A DNA stretch of 64,000 nt from Salinicola peritrichatus (GTDB lineage Bacteria > Pseudomonadota > Gammaproteobacteria > Pseudomonadales > Halomonadaceae), in assembly GCF_003206715.1 (NCBI RefSeq), contig NZ_PZJU01000049.1, forward strand, positions 62,001 to 126,000, read 5' to 3'. The stretch's first letter is position 1. Every line of letters starts with the position of its first letter. The position numbers were made by a program, and so were the translations under genes. This document shows, piece after piece, positions 4,254-12,027 of the stretch. The notes under the pieces are model-generated. The model had not been told where the DNA came from, did no database searches, and saw only the letters and a program-made list of their open reading frames with translations.

Positions 4254-5354
4254 ATGAGTGATACTTCCAAGCCGCCGCAGGATCTCGCCGCCCTGCGTCA
4301 ACGCATCGATACCATCGACAGCGAACTGCTGCGCCTGATCAGCGAACGCGCCGACTGCGCGCAGCAGGTTGCCCATGTCAAGACGGCCGACGATCCGAAT
4401 GCCGTCTTCTATCGCCCGGAACGCGAGGCCCAAGTGTTGCGCCGGGTGATGGAGAACAACCCCGGGCCGCTCCACAGCGAAGAAGTGGCGCGGCTGTTCC
4501 GCGAGATCATGTCGGCCTGCCTGGCGCTGGAGAAGCCGATCAAGGTGGCCTATCTCGGCCCGGAAGGAACCTTCACGCAACAGGCGGCGCTCAAGCATTT
4601 CGGCCATAGCGCGATCAGCCTGCCGATGGCCGCGATCGACGAAGTCTTCCGCGAAGTCGAGGCGGGCGCGGTCAACTATGGCGTGGTGCCGGTGGAGAAT
4701 TCCACCGAGGGCGTGGTCAATCATACCCTCGATTCGTTCATGGACTCGGGGCTGCACATCAGCGGCGAGGTGGTACTGCGTATCCATCATCACCTGCTGA
4801 TTTCCCACATCACGCGCCAGGACAAGATTTCGCGGATCTACTCGCATCCGCAATCCTTCGCCCAGTGTCGCAAGTGGCTCGACGCCCACTATCCGCACGC
4901 CGAGCGGGTGGCGGTCTCCTCCAACGCCGAGGCGGCGCGACTGGTCAAGACCGAGTGGCACAGCGCCGCCATCGCCGGCGACATGGCGGCCCAGCTCTAC
5001 GGACTCGACCGCGTGGCGGAGAAGATCGAGGACCGCCCCGACAACTCGACGCGCTTTCTGATCATCGGCAACGAATCGGTGCCGCCATCGGGTACCGACA
5101 AGACCTCGATCGTGGTTGCCATGCGCAATCAGCCCGGGGTGCTGCACGATCTGCTCGAGCCGTTTCATCGTCATCACATCGACCTGACGCGTCTCGAGAC
5201 GCGTCCGTCGCGCACCGGTGCCTGGAACTACGTGTTCTTCATCGACTTCAAGGGCCACATCGACCAGCCGGAGATCGCCAGCGTGCTCGAAGAGGTCCGC
5301 GGGCACGCCTCCGACATGAAGGTGCTGGGCTCCTATCCGGTGGGTGTGCTCTGA
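4254..5354 (+). CDS. pheA: Bifunctional chorismate mutase / prephenate dehydratase (P-protein)
   Basis: Converts chorismate to prephenate and then to phenylpyruvate, committing carbon to phenylalanine. Three domains are visible in 366 aa. An AroQ-type chorismate mutase (about 1-90, LAALRQRIDTIDSELLRLI) is followed by the prephenate dehydratase core (about 95-275, AYLGPEGTFTQQAA, and ENSTEG). A C-terminal ACT regulatory domain (about 285-360) has GVLHDLLEPF and an ETRPS variant of the phenylalanine-binding ESRP motif. Feedback inhibition by phenylalanine is therefore likely (family knowledge). The ATG at 4254 follows GGAAACGCTC. Its stop lies directly at the tyrA-aroA start, so translation is probably coupled. 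Confidence 0.97.
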   Translation: MSDTSKPPQDLAALRQRIDTIDSELLRLISERADCAQQVAHVKTADDPNAVFYRPEREAQVLRRVMENNPGPLHSEEVARLFREIMSACLALEKPIKVAYLGPEGTFTQQAALKHFGHSAISLPMAAIDEVFREVEAGAVNYGVVPVENSTEGVVNHTLDSFMDSGLHISGEVVLRIHHHLLISHITRQDKISRIYSHPQSFAQCRKWLDAHYPHAERVAVSSNAEAARLVKTEWHSAAIAGDMAAQLYGLDRVAEKIEDRPDNSTRFLIIGNESVPPSGTDKTSIVVAMRNQPGVLHDLLEPFHRHHIDLTRLETRPSRTGAWNYVFFIDFKGHIDQPEIASVLEEVRGHASDMKVLGSYPVGVL

Positions 5355-5355
5355 G

Positions 5356-7617
5356 ATGGGAGTGAGCCAGAACCCGGATCGGGATTCGACCCTGTTGATC
5401 GTCGGGCTCGGCATGATCGGCGGCTCGTTGGCCGCCGCGCTCAAGGCCGGTGGCTACGGCGGGCGCATCCTGGGGTGCGACCGCGACGCCGACGAGATCG
5501 CCACCGGCCTCGAAATGGGGCTGATCGACGAAGGGGGCCGCGAGATGGCACCGCTGGTCGAGCGCAGCGATGTCGTCGTGCTGGCGGTGCCGGTGCTGGC
5601 AATGGAGCCGGTGCTCAAGCAGTTGGCGCCGTTGGTCGGCGAACGCGTCCTGACCGATGTGGGCAGCACCAAGCGCGTGGTCTGCGACGCGGCGCGTGCG
5701 GCCTTCGGGCGCATGCCGGCGAATTTCGTGCCCGGCCATCCGATCGCCGGCTCCGAAAAGAGCGGCGTGGCTGCCGCCAATCCGGCGCTTTTCCGTCATC
5801 ATAAGGTCATTCTCACCCCCGAGGCTGATACCGACCCTGGCGCACTCGGCCGGGTGCGGGCGCTCTGGCAGCGCTGCGGCGCGGAAGTGCTCGAGATGCC
5901 GGTGGATCGTCACGATCAGGTGCTGGCGCGTACCAGTCATCTGCCGCATCTGCTGGCGTTCTCGCTGGTCGACACACTGGCGCGTCAGGACGAACGCCTG
6001 GAGATCTTTCGCTACGCCGCTGGCGGTTTTCGCGATTTCACCCGCATCGCCGGCAGCGATCCGGTGATGTGGCGTGACATCTTCACCGCCAATCGCGATG
6101 CACTGCTGGCGGCGTTGGATGATTTCGAAAACGGGCTGGCGCGGCTGCGGGCTGCGGTGGCGAAGGGCGATAGCGACGCCATGCTGGGGACTTTCGATCG
6201 TGCCAGCCACGCGCGACACTATTTCGAAACGTTGTTGAATCAGACGAGTTATCAAACCATGGAAGCACGACAGGTTCAGTACCGGGTATCGCCCGGCGGT
6301 TCGGTCAGTGGCCGGATTCGCGTGCCCGGCGACAAGTCCATCTCGCATCGCTCGATCATGCTCGGCGCGCTTGCCGACGGCGTTACTGAGGTCAAGGGCT
6401 TTCTCGAGGGCGAGGACAGTCTGGCGACACTGCAGGCGTTTCGCGACATGGGCGTGGCGATCGAGGGCCCGTACCAGGGCCGGGTGACGATCCATGGCGT
6501 CGGCTTGCATGGACTGAAGAAGCCGGCTGGACCGCTTTACGTGGGTAATTCCGGGACGGCGATGCGGTTGTTCGCCGGCCTGCTGGCGGGGCAGGCGTTC
6601 GATACCGAACTGACCGGCGACGCGTCGTTGACCAAGCGGCCCATGGCGCGGGTGGCCGATCCGCTGAGATTGATGGGCGCGAGGATCGACACCGCCGAGG
6701 GCGGACGTCCGCCGCTCAGGATGCATGGCGGCCAGAAGCTCAAGGGCATCGACTACGACATGCCGATGGCCAGCGCTCAGGTCAAGTCCTGCCTGTTGTT
6801 GGCCGGGCTCTACGCCGAAGGTGAAACCCGTGTTCGCGAGCCGGCGCCGACCCGCGACCATACCGAGCGCATGCTCAACGGCTTCGGCTACGCGGTCGAG
6901 CGCGACGGCGACGTGGCACGCCTGCGGGGCGGCGGCAAGTTGACCAGCGCGCCGATCGACGTGCCCTCCGATATCTCCTCGGCCGCCTTCTTCCTGGTCG
7001 CCGCGGCGATCACGCCGGGCTCGGACCTGGTGCTGGAGCATGTCGGCGTCAACCCGACGCGCATCGGCGTGATCAATATCCTCAAGGCGATGGGGGCCGA
7101 TCTGCGCTTGGAGAATTCGCGCGAAGTCGGTGGAGAACCGGTCGCCGATCTGCACATCCGTTACGCGCCGCTCAAGGGCATCGACATTCCCATCGACCAG
7201 GTACCGCTGGCGATCGATGAATTCCCGGTATTGTTCGTCGCCGCCGCCAACGCCGAGGGCACGACGCGTCTGCGCGGGGCGGAGGAGCTGCGGGTCAAGG
7301 AGTCCGACCGCATCCAGGCGATGGCCGATGGCCTGAGCGTGCTCGGCGTCGAGACTACCGTCTACGACGACGGTATCGATGTGGTGGGGCGCGGTGGCGG
7401 CGAACCGAACGATACACAGAATCGTGCCACGAGCTATGCGGGCGGTCAGGTCGATAGTCTGGGCGATCACCGTATCGCCATGGCCTTCGCGGTGGCGGCG
7501 CTGCGCGCACGCGAGCCGATCGTGATCGATGACTGCGCCAACGTGGCGACATCCTTCCCGGGTTTTGTCGCGCTGGCCAACAAGGTGGGGCTCGAGCTGA
7601 TGGAGACCTCGATATGA
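5356..7617 (+). CDS. tyrA-aroA: Fused prephenate dehydrogenase / EPSP synthase
   Basis: One 753-aa frame joins two enzymes. Residues 1-300 are a TyrA-type NAD(P)-dependent cyclohexadienyl dehydrogenase, with Rossmann motif [14 protein letters not shown] and [11 protein letters not shown]. From about residue 302 (Met encoded at 6259) it is class I 3-phosphoshikimate 1-carboxyvinyltransferase, with [30 protein letters not shown] and RVKESDRI. TyrA leads to tyrosine; AroA makes EPSP upstream of chorismate. This fusion is known in pseudomonads and Halomonadaceae. I chose ATG 5356, just after the pheA stop; a GTG at 5344 would overlap pheA and add four unlikely residues. The stop overlaps the cmk start by ATGA. 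Confidence 0.95.
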
Positions 7618-8501: not shown

Positions 8502-10178
8502 ATGAGCGAAAGCTTTGCTGAACTGTTTGAACAATCTCTCCAGGACATCAACATGGAGCCCGGTGCCATCGTCATGGCAACCGTGGTCGACATCGAAGGC
8601 GACTGGATTACCGTCAACGCCGGCCTGAAGTCCGAAGGGCAGATCCCCGCGGCGCAGTTCCGCGACGATAACGGTGAAATGACCATCGCGGTCGGTGACG
8701 AAGTCAAGGTCGCGCTGGAGGCCGTCGAAGATGGTTTCGGCGAAACCCGCCTGTCACGCGAGAAGGCCAAGCGCGCCGAAGCGTGGAAGGAACTGGAAGC
8801 GGCCTTCGAGAAGGACGAGATCGTCAAGGGCGTGATCAACGGCAAGGTCAAGGGCGGCTTTACCGTCGACGTTTCCTCCATTCGTGCCTTCCTGCCGGGC
8901 TCCCTGGTCGACGTGCGCCCGGTTCGCGATACCGCGCACCTGGAGCACAAAGAACTCGACTTCAAGGTCATCAAGCTCGATCCGAAGCGCAACAACGTCG
9001 TCGTTTCCCGTCGTGCCGTGCTCGAAGCCGAGAACAGCGCCGAGCGTGAAGCGCTGCTCGCCACCCTGCAGGAAGGCCAGCAGATCAACGGTATCGTCAA
9101 GAACCTGACCGACTACGGTGCCTTCGTCGACCTCGGTGGCGTCGACGGCCTGCTGCACATCACCGACATGGCCTGGAAGCGCATCAAGCATCCGAGCGAG
9201 ATCGTGGCCGTTGGCGACGAGATCAACGTCAAGGTGCTCAAGTTCGACCGCGAGCGCAACCGCGTCTCTCTGGGCCTGAAGCAGTTGGGCGAAGACCCGT
9301 GGGTCAACATCGTCGACCGTTATCCGGAAGGCACCAAGGTCAAGGCCCGCGTTACCAATCTGACCGACTACGGCTGCTTCGCCGAGCTGGAAGAGGGTGT
9401 CGAAGGTCTGGTTCACGTCTCCGAAATGGACTGGACCAACAAGAATATCCATCCGTCCAAGGTGGTTCAGGTCGGTGACGAAGTCGAAGTCATGGTTCTC
9501 GACATCGACGAAGAGCGTCGTCGTATCTCCCTGGGTATCAAGCAGTGCACCACCAACCCGTGGGAAGACTTCAGCGCACGCTACAACAAGGGCGATCGCG
9601 TTTCCGGCACCATCAAGTCGATCACTGATTTCGGTATCTTCATCGGTCTGGAAGGCGGCATCGACGGACTGGTTCACCTCTCGGACATCTCCTGGAGCGA
9701 AACCGGCGAAGAGGCCGTGCGCCAGTTCAAGAAGGGCGACGAAGCGGAAGCCGTCATCCTGTCGATCGACCCCGAGCGCGAGCGTATCTCGCTGGGTATC
9801 AAGCAGCTCGAAACCGACCCGGTTTCCGAGTTCCTGGCGGTCAACGACAAGGGTTCGATCGTTACCGGTCGCGTCGTCGAAGTCGACGCCAAGGAAGCTC
9901 ACGTCGAGCTGGCGACCGATGTCATCGGCGTGCTCAAGGCCTCCGAAATCAGTGCCGACCGTGTCGAAGACGCGCGTAACGTGCTGAACGAAGGCGATAG
10001 CGTCGAAGCCAAGATCGTCAACGTCGATCGCAAGAGCCGTGCCATCAACCTCTCCATCAAGGCCAAGGAGCAGGGCGATACGCGCCGCAACCTGAACAAG
10101 CTGCGCGAGCAGGAAGTCGAGACCAGCGGTCCGACCACCATTGGTGATCTGATCAAGCAGCAGATGGGCCAAGAGTGA
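8502..10178 (+). CDS. rpsA: 30S ribosomal protein S1
   Basis: mRNA-binding ribosomal protein needed for initiation on structured or weak Shine-Dalgarno messages. The 558-aa protein has the six S1 (OB-fold) repeats of the enterobacterial-type S1, visible as repeated blocks [58 protein letters not shown] and [20 protein letters not shown]. Length matches the E. coli protein (557 aa). The conserved N-terminus [13 protein letters not shown] fixes the start. It is the last gene of the gyrA-to-rpsA train and is closed by a strong terminator. In E. coli ihfB follows rpsA; here ihfB lies about 8 kb away on the other strand. Confidence 0.98.
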
Positions 10179-10212
10179 TCTGATTCTATAAGATCTTCTT
10201 CTCCCTATGAAA

Positions 10213-10240
10213 AACAGCGCCTCCGGGCGTTGTTTTTTTA
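10213..10240 (+). terminator. Rho-independent terminator after rpsA
   Basis: The stem AACAGCGCC / GGCGTTGTT (10213-10221, 10226-10234, one G-T pair) has a TCCG tetraloop, and the stem's closing TT continues into a run of seven T. Classic intrinsic terminator 35 bases past the rpsA stop. Confidence 0.9.
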
Positions 10241-10302
10241 TATCCATCTACCTTCTGATATGAAATATGACGTTGATCGTTCCCGGCATCAGCGAAGGAA
10301 AT

Positions 10303-10701
10303 TCAACGTCTGAACCAGTTTCTCAAGCGCCGGCCCGCCGAGCTGGGAGGTGCCGTGGCGGGCTCATGCCCGGACAGCCGTGCGACGGCCTCGCGCAACG
10401 GCAGAATGATCGCTTCCAGATGATAGTGGCAGAGCTGGCAATCCAATGCTCCCGGACATTGCGCCATGAGCAGGCCGCAATGGTAGGTGGCGGTATCGAG
10501 CGCGGCGTGGACATCGGCGAAAGGCGAAGCGACCTGCCGGCAGCGCTTGAGCTCACGCAGCAGCATTTTCAGCATCCGTGCATCCAGCCAGCAGGGACTG
10601 GTCGCGGTGGGTGAGACAGTGGGGATCGAGTTCTGCACGGCCTGAAAAGAGACGTGTAGAAAAACGCAGGTGTAATAGAGTTGCGAGCGCTCCGAAGTCA
10701 C
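10303..10701 (-). CDS. Small Cys-rich hypothetical protein behind a Fur-box-like promoter
   Basis: A 132-aa frame that I do not recognise. The start GTG at 10701 is supported by AAAGGAG nine bases upstream. Residues 70-130 are mostly helical, with a cysteine/histidine cluster CPGALDCQLCHYH that contains CQLCH, a CXXCH pattern. No signal peptide is evident, so covalent heme is unlikely and a metal or Fe-S role is only a possibility. The C-terminus is basic (GRRLRNWFRR). A sigma70-type promoter whose -10 is overlapped by a Fur-box-like palindrome lies just upstream (10721-10762), pointing to iron-responsive expression. A small Fur-controlled accessory protein would fit, but this is inference. 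Confidence 0.6.
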   Translation of the reverse strand: MTSERSQLYYTCVFLHVSFQAVQNSIPTVSPTATSPCWLDARMLKMLLRELKRCRQVASPFADVHAALDTATYHCGLLMAQCPGALDCQLCHYHLEAIILPLREAVARLSGHEPATAPPSSAGRRLRNWFRR

Positions 10702-10720
10702 CGGTCTCGACTCCTTTGAT

Positions 10721-10762
10721 GAGAGAGATTCCCATTCTCTTTCCTGCGCTGTGCTTTGTCAA
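10721..10762 (-). promoter_or_regulatory. Sigma70 promoter with overlapping Fur-box-like palindrome
   Basis: On the minus strand TTGACA (10757-10762) is followed after 17 bp by GAGAAT (10734-10739). The 19-mer over the -10 (10721-10739) reads GAGAATGGGAATCTCTCTC and matches 13 of 19 positions of the E. coli Fur consensus by my count. Overlap with the -10 is the usual position for Fur repression. Confidence 0.55.
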
Positions 10763-10804: not shown

Positions 10805-11542
10805 CTAGCCGTCGTGCCTTTGGGTTTCCAAGTCTGGGTTTTTCAGGGCGTTGAGTACGCCACGTAGAATCGATAACTCCTTGCGGCTGGGTTCGGCGCG
10901 GGCGAACAGGGCGCGCAGGTGGGCTTCGGTCTTGGCATGCGGTTGGGTCAGGAAACCGGCGCTGTCGAGCGCACGGTGCAGGTGCGCATAGAAATGCTCG
11001 AGCTGTTCGACGGTCGGATAGGGCGCGCTTGCCCTGGGCATTGGCTCCAGGGGCCGACGAGATTGTCGGAACGCCTCGTAAGCCACGATCTGGACGGCTT
11101 GGGAGAGATTGAGCACGCCATATTCGGGATTGGCCGGAATCTGCAACTGATGGGTGCAGTGGCCGATCTCCTCGTTGGTGAGGCCGTAGCGCTCACGGCC
11201 GAAGACGATTGCTACCGGGCCGTCGGGCAGGCGTTTCCATGCCTCCCGGAGCATGACATCGGGAGCGTGATAGCAGGGCAGCGGCAGGCTGCGCAGGCGG
11301 GCGCTGGCGCCGATCACCTGGACACAATCGCCGATTGCGTCGGGCAGCGAGTCCACGACGCGACAGTTCTCGACGAGATCGCTGGCCCCTGCGGCGAGGC
11401 GTGTCGCCTCCTCATCGGGAAACCGGCGTGGCGATACCAGTACCAGATCGCTCAAGCCCATGGTTTTCATTGCCCGGGCGCTGGCGCCAATGTTGCCGGG
11501 ATGAAAGGTCTGGACCAGCACAATACGAAGTCGATCCAGCAT
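10805..11542 (-). CDS. trmJ: tRNA (cytidine/uridine-2'-O-)-methyltransferase TrmJ
   Basis: SPOUT-class methyltransferase that modifies the ribose of C32/U32 in tRNA anticodon loops. The 245-aa product begins MLDRLRIVLVQTFHPGNIG and carries VLVSPRRFPDEEA, IVFGRERYGLTNEE and the knot-forming NLSQAVQIVAYE, the three SPOUT motifs of the TrmJ/YfiF group. ATG 11542 is chosen because it gives this N-terminus; an upstream TTG at 11689 would add 49 residues that overlap the next gene. The GNAT gene upstream ends three bases before this start, so the two are probably one transcript. Confidence 0.93.
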   Translation of the reverse strand: MLDRLRIVLVQTFHPGNIGASARAMKTMGLSDLVLVSPRRFPDEEATRLAAGASDLVENCRVVDSLPDAIGDCVQVIGASARLRSLPLPCYHAPDVMLREAWKRLPDGPVAIVFGRERYGLTNEEIGHCTHQLQIPANPEYGVLNLSQAVQIVAYEAFRQSRRPLEPMPRASAPYPTVEQLEHFYAHLHRALDSAGFLTQPHAKTEAHLRALFARAEPSRKELSILRGVLNALKNPDLETQRHDG

Positions 11543-11544
11543 GC

Positions 11545-12027
11545 TCAACTCTCCCCGGCGAAGCGCTCGAGCGCCTCGCCCTCCAATCGATAGGGTAGCC
11601 AGGTCTCCTGATGCCGGGCGCCGAGCGAACGATAGAAATCGATCGCCGGCTGGTTCCAGTCGAGCACCTGCCAATCGACGCGTCGGCAACCCTTGGCAAT
11701 GGCGACTCTGGCCACGCCGCGCAGCAGGGCCAGGCCGGCACCGGCACCGCGAGCTTGAGGCTCGACGAACAGATCCTCGAGATAGATGCCATGGCGACCC
11801 AGCCAGGTCGAGTAATTGAAGAAATAGGCGGCAAAACCGACCGGCTTGCCTGCCTGTTCGGCGATCAGGGCATGTACCTGAGGGCGATCGGCAAAGAGTG
11901 TCTGATGAATGTCGGCTAATGTGGCCTCGACCTGGTCGCTGGCCTTCTCGTAGTCGGCCAGTTGCTGAATGAAATCGAGCAACAAAGGAGCATCAGGGCG
12001 TTCGGCGGGGCGGATGGTAACGGTCAT
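11545..12027 (-). CDS. GNAT-family N-acetyltransferase
   Basis: 160-aa acetyl-CoA-dependent acetyltransferase. The acetyl-CoA-binding motif A is visible in LFVEPQARGAGAGLALL (R/Q-x-x-G-x-G/A type), and the motif B region is DWQVLDWNQPAIDFYRSLGA. The overall pattern, including GIYLEDLFVEP, is close to diamine/thialysine acetyltransferases, so a polyamine or amino-acid amine is a plausible substrate (inference). The start at 12027 gives MTVTIRPAERPDA; an upstream in-frame start at 12093 lacks family-like sequence. It lies immediately upstream of trmJ. Confidence 0.85.
   Translation of the reverse strand: MTVTIRPAERPDAPLLLDFIQQLADYEKASDQVEATLADIHQTLFADRPQVHALIAEQAGKPVGFAAYFFNYSTWLGRHGIYLEDLFVEPQARGAGAGLALLRGVARVAIAKGCRRVDWQVLDWNQPAIDFYRSLGARHQETWLPYRLEGEALERFAGES

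Follow-up and report, generated by a model that had tools for sequence, protein, structure and literature searches.

A Fur-boxed orphan gene of the Halomonadaceae encoding a predicted helical-bundle protein with three invariant cysteines

Among the members of Fur regulons are small proteins that have no known function. FagA of Pseudomonas is small and Fur-controlled, is encoded beside fumC and sodA, and has no known function. Bacterioferritin-associated ferredoxin (Bfd) is a small cysteine protein made under iron shortage. Here we describe a further protein of this kind, an orphan spread in the family Halomonadaceae, starting from a stretch of 64,000 nucleotides of Salinicola peritrichatus (contig NZ_PZJU01000049.1; hereafter the window). 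Taken as a whole, we consider it probable that the orphan gene is a monocistronic member of the Fur regulon whose product, a helical-bundle protein with a thiolate site, plays an iron-sparing role. In the excerpts seen of the open-licence literature on Fur in Halomonas, Chromohalobacter and Salinicola, we found no study of this gene.

The orphan gene lies on the minus strand at 10303-10701, with a GTG start at 10701 and a stop codon ending at 10303, and encodes 132 amino acids. Its neighbours are rpsA, for ribosomal protein S1 (8502-10178, plus strand), which is convergent with it, and a trmJ-like gene for a SpoU-family methylase (10805-11689, minus strand), which lies upstream on the same strand. 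A hairpin with T-runs on both strands at 10209-10238 (-18.7 kcal/mol on the plus strand and -11.4 on the minus strand) is the probable shared terminator of rpsA and the orphan gene, and is absent from the output of a simple terminator scan. The signals that a first-pass annotation of this DNA had read from the letters are all in place on the minus strand, namely a near-consensus promoter with TTGACA at 10762-10757 and GAGAAT at 10739-10734, separated by 17 bp, and an AAAGGAG ribosome-binding site at 10717-10711 ahead of the GTG and its 132-codon frame. A promoter scan returned two sites in 1.2 kb against 0.4 expected, the better one (10/12) being TTGACA-N17-GAGAAT. Strong AAAGGAG and GTG start alike are peculiar to this genome: its 15 same-genus relatives use ATG, mostly behind weaker ribosome sites. 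Elsewhere in the window, a 757-aa open reading frame at 5344-7617 (plus strand), by eye similar to a TyrA-AroA fusion, is overlapped almost completely by a 740-aa antisense frame at 5248-7470 (minus strand). Near-complete antisense overlaps of this sort are common in GC-rich genes.

The same annotation had noted over the -10 a 19-mer matching 13 of 19 Fur consensus positions. The match exists, at 10739-10721, when scored against what we take to be the E. coli-type Fur consensus, but taken alone it stands at chance level. A second palindromic place in the window reaches 13 as well, and when the window was simulated with a first-order Markov model, 5 of 10 runs contained at least one site of 13/19. 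The single-sequence evidence behind the claim is weaker than its reader believed and, the match alone not being significant, the claim is therefore settled by comparison across genomes. That comparison places the conserved Fur site at 10718-10736, three bases off the 19-mer, and in this register it rises far above chance. A match of 13/19 at chance level would also fit an open frame that arose by chance in a GC-rich gap, along with strings that resemble a promoter and a Fur box by accident, and so would the lack of the gene in 2 of 18 same-genus genomes. The distribution of the gene bears directly on this reading.

A search of 38 genomes with the single sequence recovered the gene in 16 of the 18 belonging to the genus (its own included) and in none of the 20 others. 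With an alignment of 16 members as query, it was detected in 173 of 275 Halomonadaceae genomes, representing 8 of 24 genera. Across 293 genomes sampled evenly from the order there were seven matches, all in the same family, and none outside it. The 37 named loci are from Salinicola, Billgrantia, Modicisalibacter, Halomonas and Franzmannia. In nine codon-aligned pairs, pN/pS ranges from 0.15 to 0.40. A chance open reading frame is ruled out by the conservation in 173 of 275 genomes together with pN/pS. Protein, promoter and box are moreover kept in several genera at unrelated genome places, and the antisense frame carries stops in relatives, so that the reading of chance strings is practically negligible, being already refuted by the family distribution, the independently derived motif described below and pN/pS. 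The antisense frame itself (10267-10614, plus strand) was rejected as a real gene, its frame being interrupted by stops in several relatives. Judged by sequence comparison, the orphan gene is thus a genuine gene of the Halomonadaceae. It is missing from 102 of the 275 family genomes, including two of the same genus, and is therefore dispensable.

The first-pass annotation knew no family for the product, and the searches bear this out. Pfam has no match for the window protein or for any of 27 members, NCBIfam and PDB sequences hold no relative, and PHROGs gave none for the three members queried. Among viral contigs, 52 stretches matched the pattern and none was a relative. Among plasmid records, one carries a copy, 46% identical: NZ_CP040452.1 of Halomonas sp. 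PA16-9, labelled as a 1.8-Mb plasmid. The gene table of this record lists a single feature in the whole record, and none at the orphan-gene copy; despite its label, it may be chromosomal.

The upstream region has been preserved along with the frame. Neither the -35 nor the spacing nor GAGAAT varies among the 16 same-genus promoters, and in 55 distinct upstream regions TTGACA is exact in 49 and a -10 stands at 17 bp in 53, counts that favour good promoters because the scan keeps the best one in 150 bp. A de novo motif derived from 26 orthologue upstream regions of other genera, a training set with no Salinicola sequence, is AATGAGAATGATTCTCATT. It agrees at all 16 specified positions with the published Vibrionaceae Fur box, AATGANAATNATTNTCATT (PMC5511505). 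Scored with the AATGAGAATGATTCTCATT matrix, the site at 10718-10736 comes first in the 64-kb window with 16.3 bits, the best elsewhere reaching 9.2. At least 12 of the 16 box positions are kept in 87 of 94 distinct upstream regions; when the box is reversed, only 3 of the 94 reach this level, and shuffles average 8.5. The other 7 regions are without a clear Fur box. The window's own box, with 12 of 16 positions, is among the weaker ones and is missed by a search allowing three mismatches. The conservation of open frame and palindrome in relatives, which the first-pass annotation had named as a test, was examined here, and both are kept across genera. The comparison of relatives thus establishes, at the level of sequence, the gene, its promoter, its Fur box and the invariant residues described below. 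The result is a clean Fur-box footprint on a gene whose genome place varies between genera, with the promoter carried along.

To place this box among others, the same genome offers a useful reference. Two of its proteins match the FUR family, one of them a strong Fur match (E 1.7e-40). With the AATGAGAATGATTCTCATT matrix, 6 of the 11 TonB receptor genes show sites of at least 14 bits around their start. Of the remaining five, one has a 12.5-bit site over 1 kb upstream, and no site in the other four exceeds 8 bits. By this matrix, neither FUR-family gene has such a site of its own. Searching 4.6 Mb with the published box at three mismatches yields 19 palindromic places, and the reversed control yields none. 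Ten proteins examined beside these places are five TonB receptors (some of them already among the 11 above), two Peripla_BP_2 proteins, one FTR1 iron permease, and MarR and LysR regulators. In the whole genome the E. coli consensus finds no site with up to three mismatches, a null result that would mislead if taken as absence of Fur boxes. A further Fur-type site precedes a gene that by eye resembles one for a sigma factor, adjoining a siderophore synthase. On contig C78 of this genome, near 109440-109492, two strong Fur-type sites (21.8 and 19.1 bits) stand side by side, flanked by the gene of an auxin-efflux-like transporter and by a methyltransferase-like gene convergent with it.

In an alternative scenario, the palindrome is read by another regulator, such as a Zur-like second FUR-family protein, and the gene answers zinc or some other signal. 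A second FUR-family gene does exist, and the window's own box is weak. Yet the motif coincides with the published Fur box (PMC5511505) in every one of the 16 specified positions, and within the same genome it marks TonB receptors, two Peripla_BP_2 genes and the FTR1 iron permease, so we regard control by another regulator as very unlikely. The earlier suggestion of a Fur-controlled iron-starvation gene is supported, its motif being the published Fur box and common to TonB receptors and iron-uptake genes. By its sequence the orphan gene appears to belong to the Fur regulon as a new member with an ordinary mode of control, and it is very probably Fur-regulated and induced by iron starvation. With sufficient iron, Fur-Fe2+ would bind 10718-10736, over the -10 and the expected transcription start, and block RNA polymerase. 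When iron is short, Fur would leave and the near-consensus promoter would fire. We infer binding at this site from its sequence, and repression in iron-rich cells because the TonB receptors carry the same box.

The genomic surroundings differ between genera. The gene lies between trmJ and rpsA in 14 of 14 Salinicola loci examined and in 0 of 42 others. The two Salinicola genomes that lack it have a short, empty trmJ-rpsA gap with intact flanks and no coding trace, which is a clean recent loss. From one genus to another the gene moves, as read from these loci, yet retains its Fur-boxed promoter. Within about 4 kb, a TonB receptor, ExbB/ExbD, SOD or NrdF was found in 24 of 41 non-Salinicola loci (20 of 37 without the four loci that supplied the marker sets) and in none of 21 control stretches, made up of 8 tiles of the window and 13 loci from other searches; the 41 loci are not independent, because several come from one genus. 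The other 17 of the 41 are without any iron-type neighbour. SOD is convergent with and downstream of the orphan gene in 10 of the 41 loci, NrdF is convergent in 4, and an ExbB-ExbD pair lies upstream on the other strand in 4. The marker proteins from these loci were confirmed by Pfam, and the neighbouring SOD we take, by its signature, to be of the manganese type. The orphan gene thus recurs near genes of the Mn-enzyme type (SOD, NrdF), with its own Fur-boxed promoter. Because iron-type neighbours recur near it, the orphan protein probably serves the iron-sparing response.

The product would be a 132-aa cytosolic protein. AlphaFold2, run with 32 sequences, predicts a four-helix bundle (pLDDT 84.2, pTM 0.75) with helices at 3-25, 41-57, 62-80 and 88-109 and a low-confidence tail from about residue 112. 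DSSP assigns strands at 36-37 and 86-87 of this model; if they pair, as we presume, C37 would adjoin the loop that separates C82 from C91. Foldseek gave no match to the predicted fold at E 0.001 or below, and a viral fold library no significant one. VIA-align, which speaks only for the fold families in its list, placed a designed helical protein first (Z 12.9, rmsd 2.5, 104 aligned residues) with many bundles close below, a Z score that has little meaning for helical bundles. Across Foldseek, VIA-align and PDB sequences, nothing related in fold or in sequence hints at a chemistry.

C37, W38, C82, P83 and C91 are identical in 94 of 94 distinct sequences, the cysteines standing in the contexts PCWLD (C37), CPG (C82) and LCxxH (C91). 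D40 varies once in 94, and C54 and C75 are kept in 87 and 81 of the 94. The first-pass annotation had drawn attention to CPGALDCQLCHYH; C82 and C91 of this segment are invariant, but C88 is not conserved and its histidines are not constant in the 94 sequences. C37, C82 and C91 probably meet at one end of the bundle, where their thiolates would bind Fe, Zn, an Fe-S cluster or haem. That the three cysteines hold a metal or cofactor in this way is a tentative proposal, and the Cys-Pro pair C82-P83 is a weak hint of haem. Alternatively, the protein is Fur-controlled, its cysteines are structural or redox-active, and it acts as an adaptor that binds a partner protein such as TonB-ExbBD, Mn-SOD, NrdEF or an iron enzyme, without a metal of its own. 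A small helical bundle with no enzyme relative suits such a role, the strictly invariant cysteines number only three, fewer than four ligands, with varying histidines, and the invariant W38 and P83, together with D40 (one exception in 94), could form an interface. However, no partner is known, and a cofactor site accounts at least as well for a cytosolic protein of iron starvation with three invariant cysteines, two of which stand in CPG and LC loops. We consider the adaptor reading possible and somewhat doubtful. The three invariant cysteines lend themselves to an immediate mutational test.

How does the orphan gene compare with described systems? As in gammaproteobacterial Fur regulon genes, the same box covers the -10 of its sigma-70 promoter, but its product is of no described family; Fur control in Halomonadaceae is in this way readable from genome comparison. 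Like Bfd, it encodes a small cysteine protein, and the iron-shortage expression of Bfd is part of that likeness, whereas the Pfam ferredoxin model Fer2_BFD matches 0 of 27 orphan members. Replacement of Bfd was also considered and rejected: with Fer2_BFD domains present in 270 of the 275 genomes of the family, co-occurrence is uninformative. Proteins with a haem regulatory motif share the Cys-Pro pair, C82-P83 being present in 94 of 94 sequences, but the orphan protein has no invariant histidine as second ligand, and a motif of two residues makes for a weak likeness.

The comparison with FagA was made against FagA-like proteins encoded upstream of fumC in genomes of the order. Candidates for fumC were lower-scoring matches to NF008909 (PRK12273), and a first set of candidate loci held no FagA-like gene. 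The FagA-like proteins found have a core of LL(L/M)(D/E)T ... WR..CL ... PL, and several of their genes stand behind Fur-like palindromes. Homology of the orphan protein to them finds no support in hhalign (probability 0.3% over 18 columns). In contrast to FagA in its fumC/sodA operon, the orphan gene is not beside fumC in any of 17 loci read, and SOD, though near it in 10 of 41 loci, is convergent. We also put forward, as an improbable extension, that the CWLD...CPG...LC bundle represents a new class of iron-starvation effector that uses C37, C82 and C91 to bind iron, an Fe-S cluster or haem and also acts as the Halomonadaceae counterpart of FagA, steering the cell from iron to manganese enzymes (Mn-SOD, NrdEF). 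Setting this extension aside, FagA is by analogy the described protein nearest in kind to the orphan protein, both being small and Fur-boxed, with other Fur-type and Mn-enzyme genes nearby.
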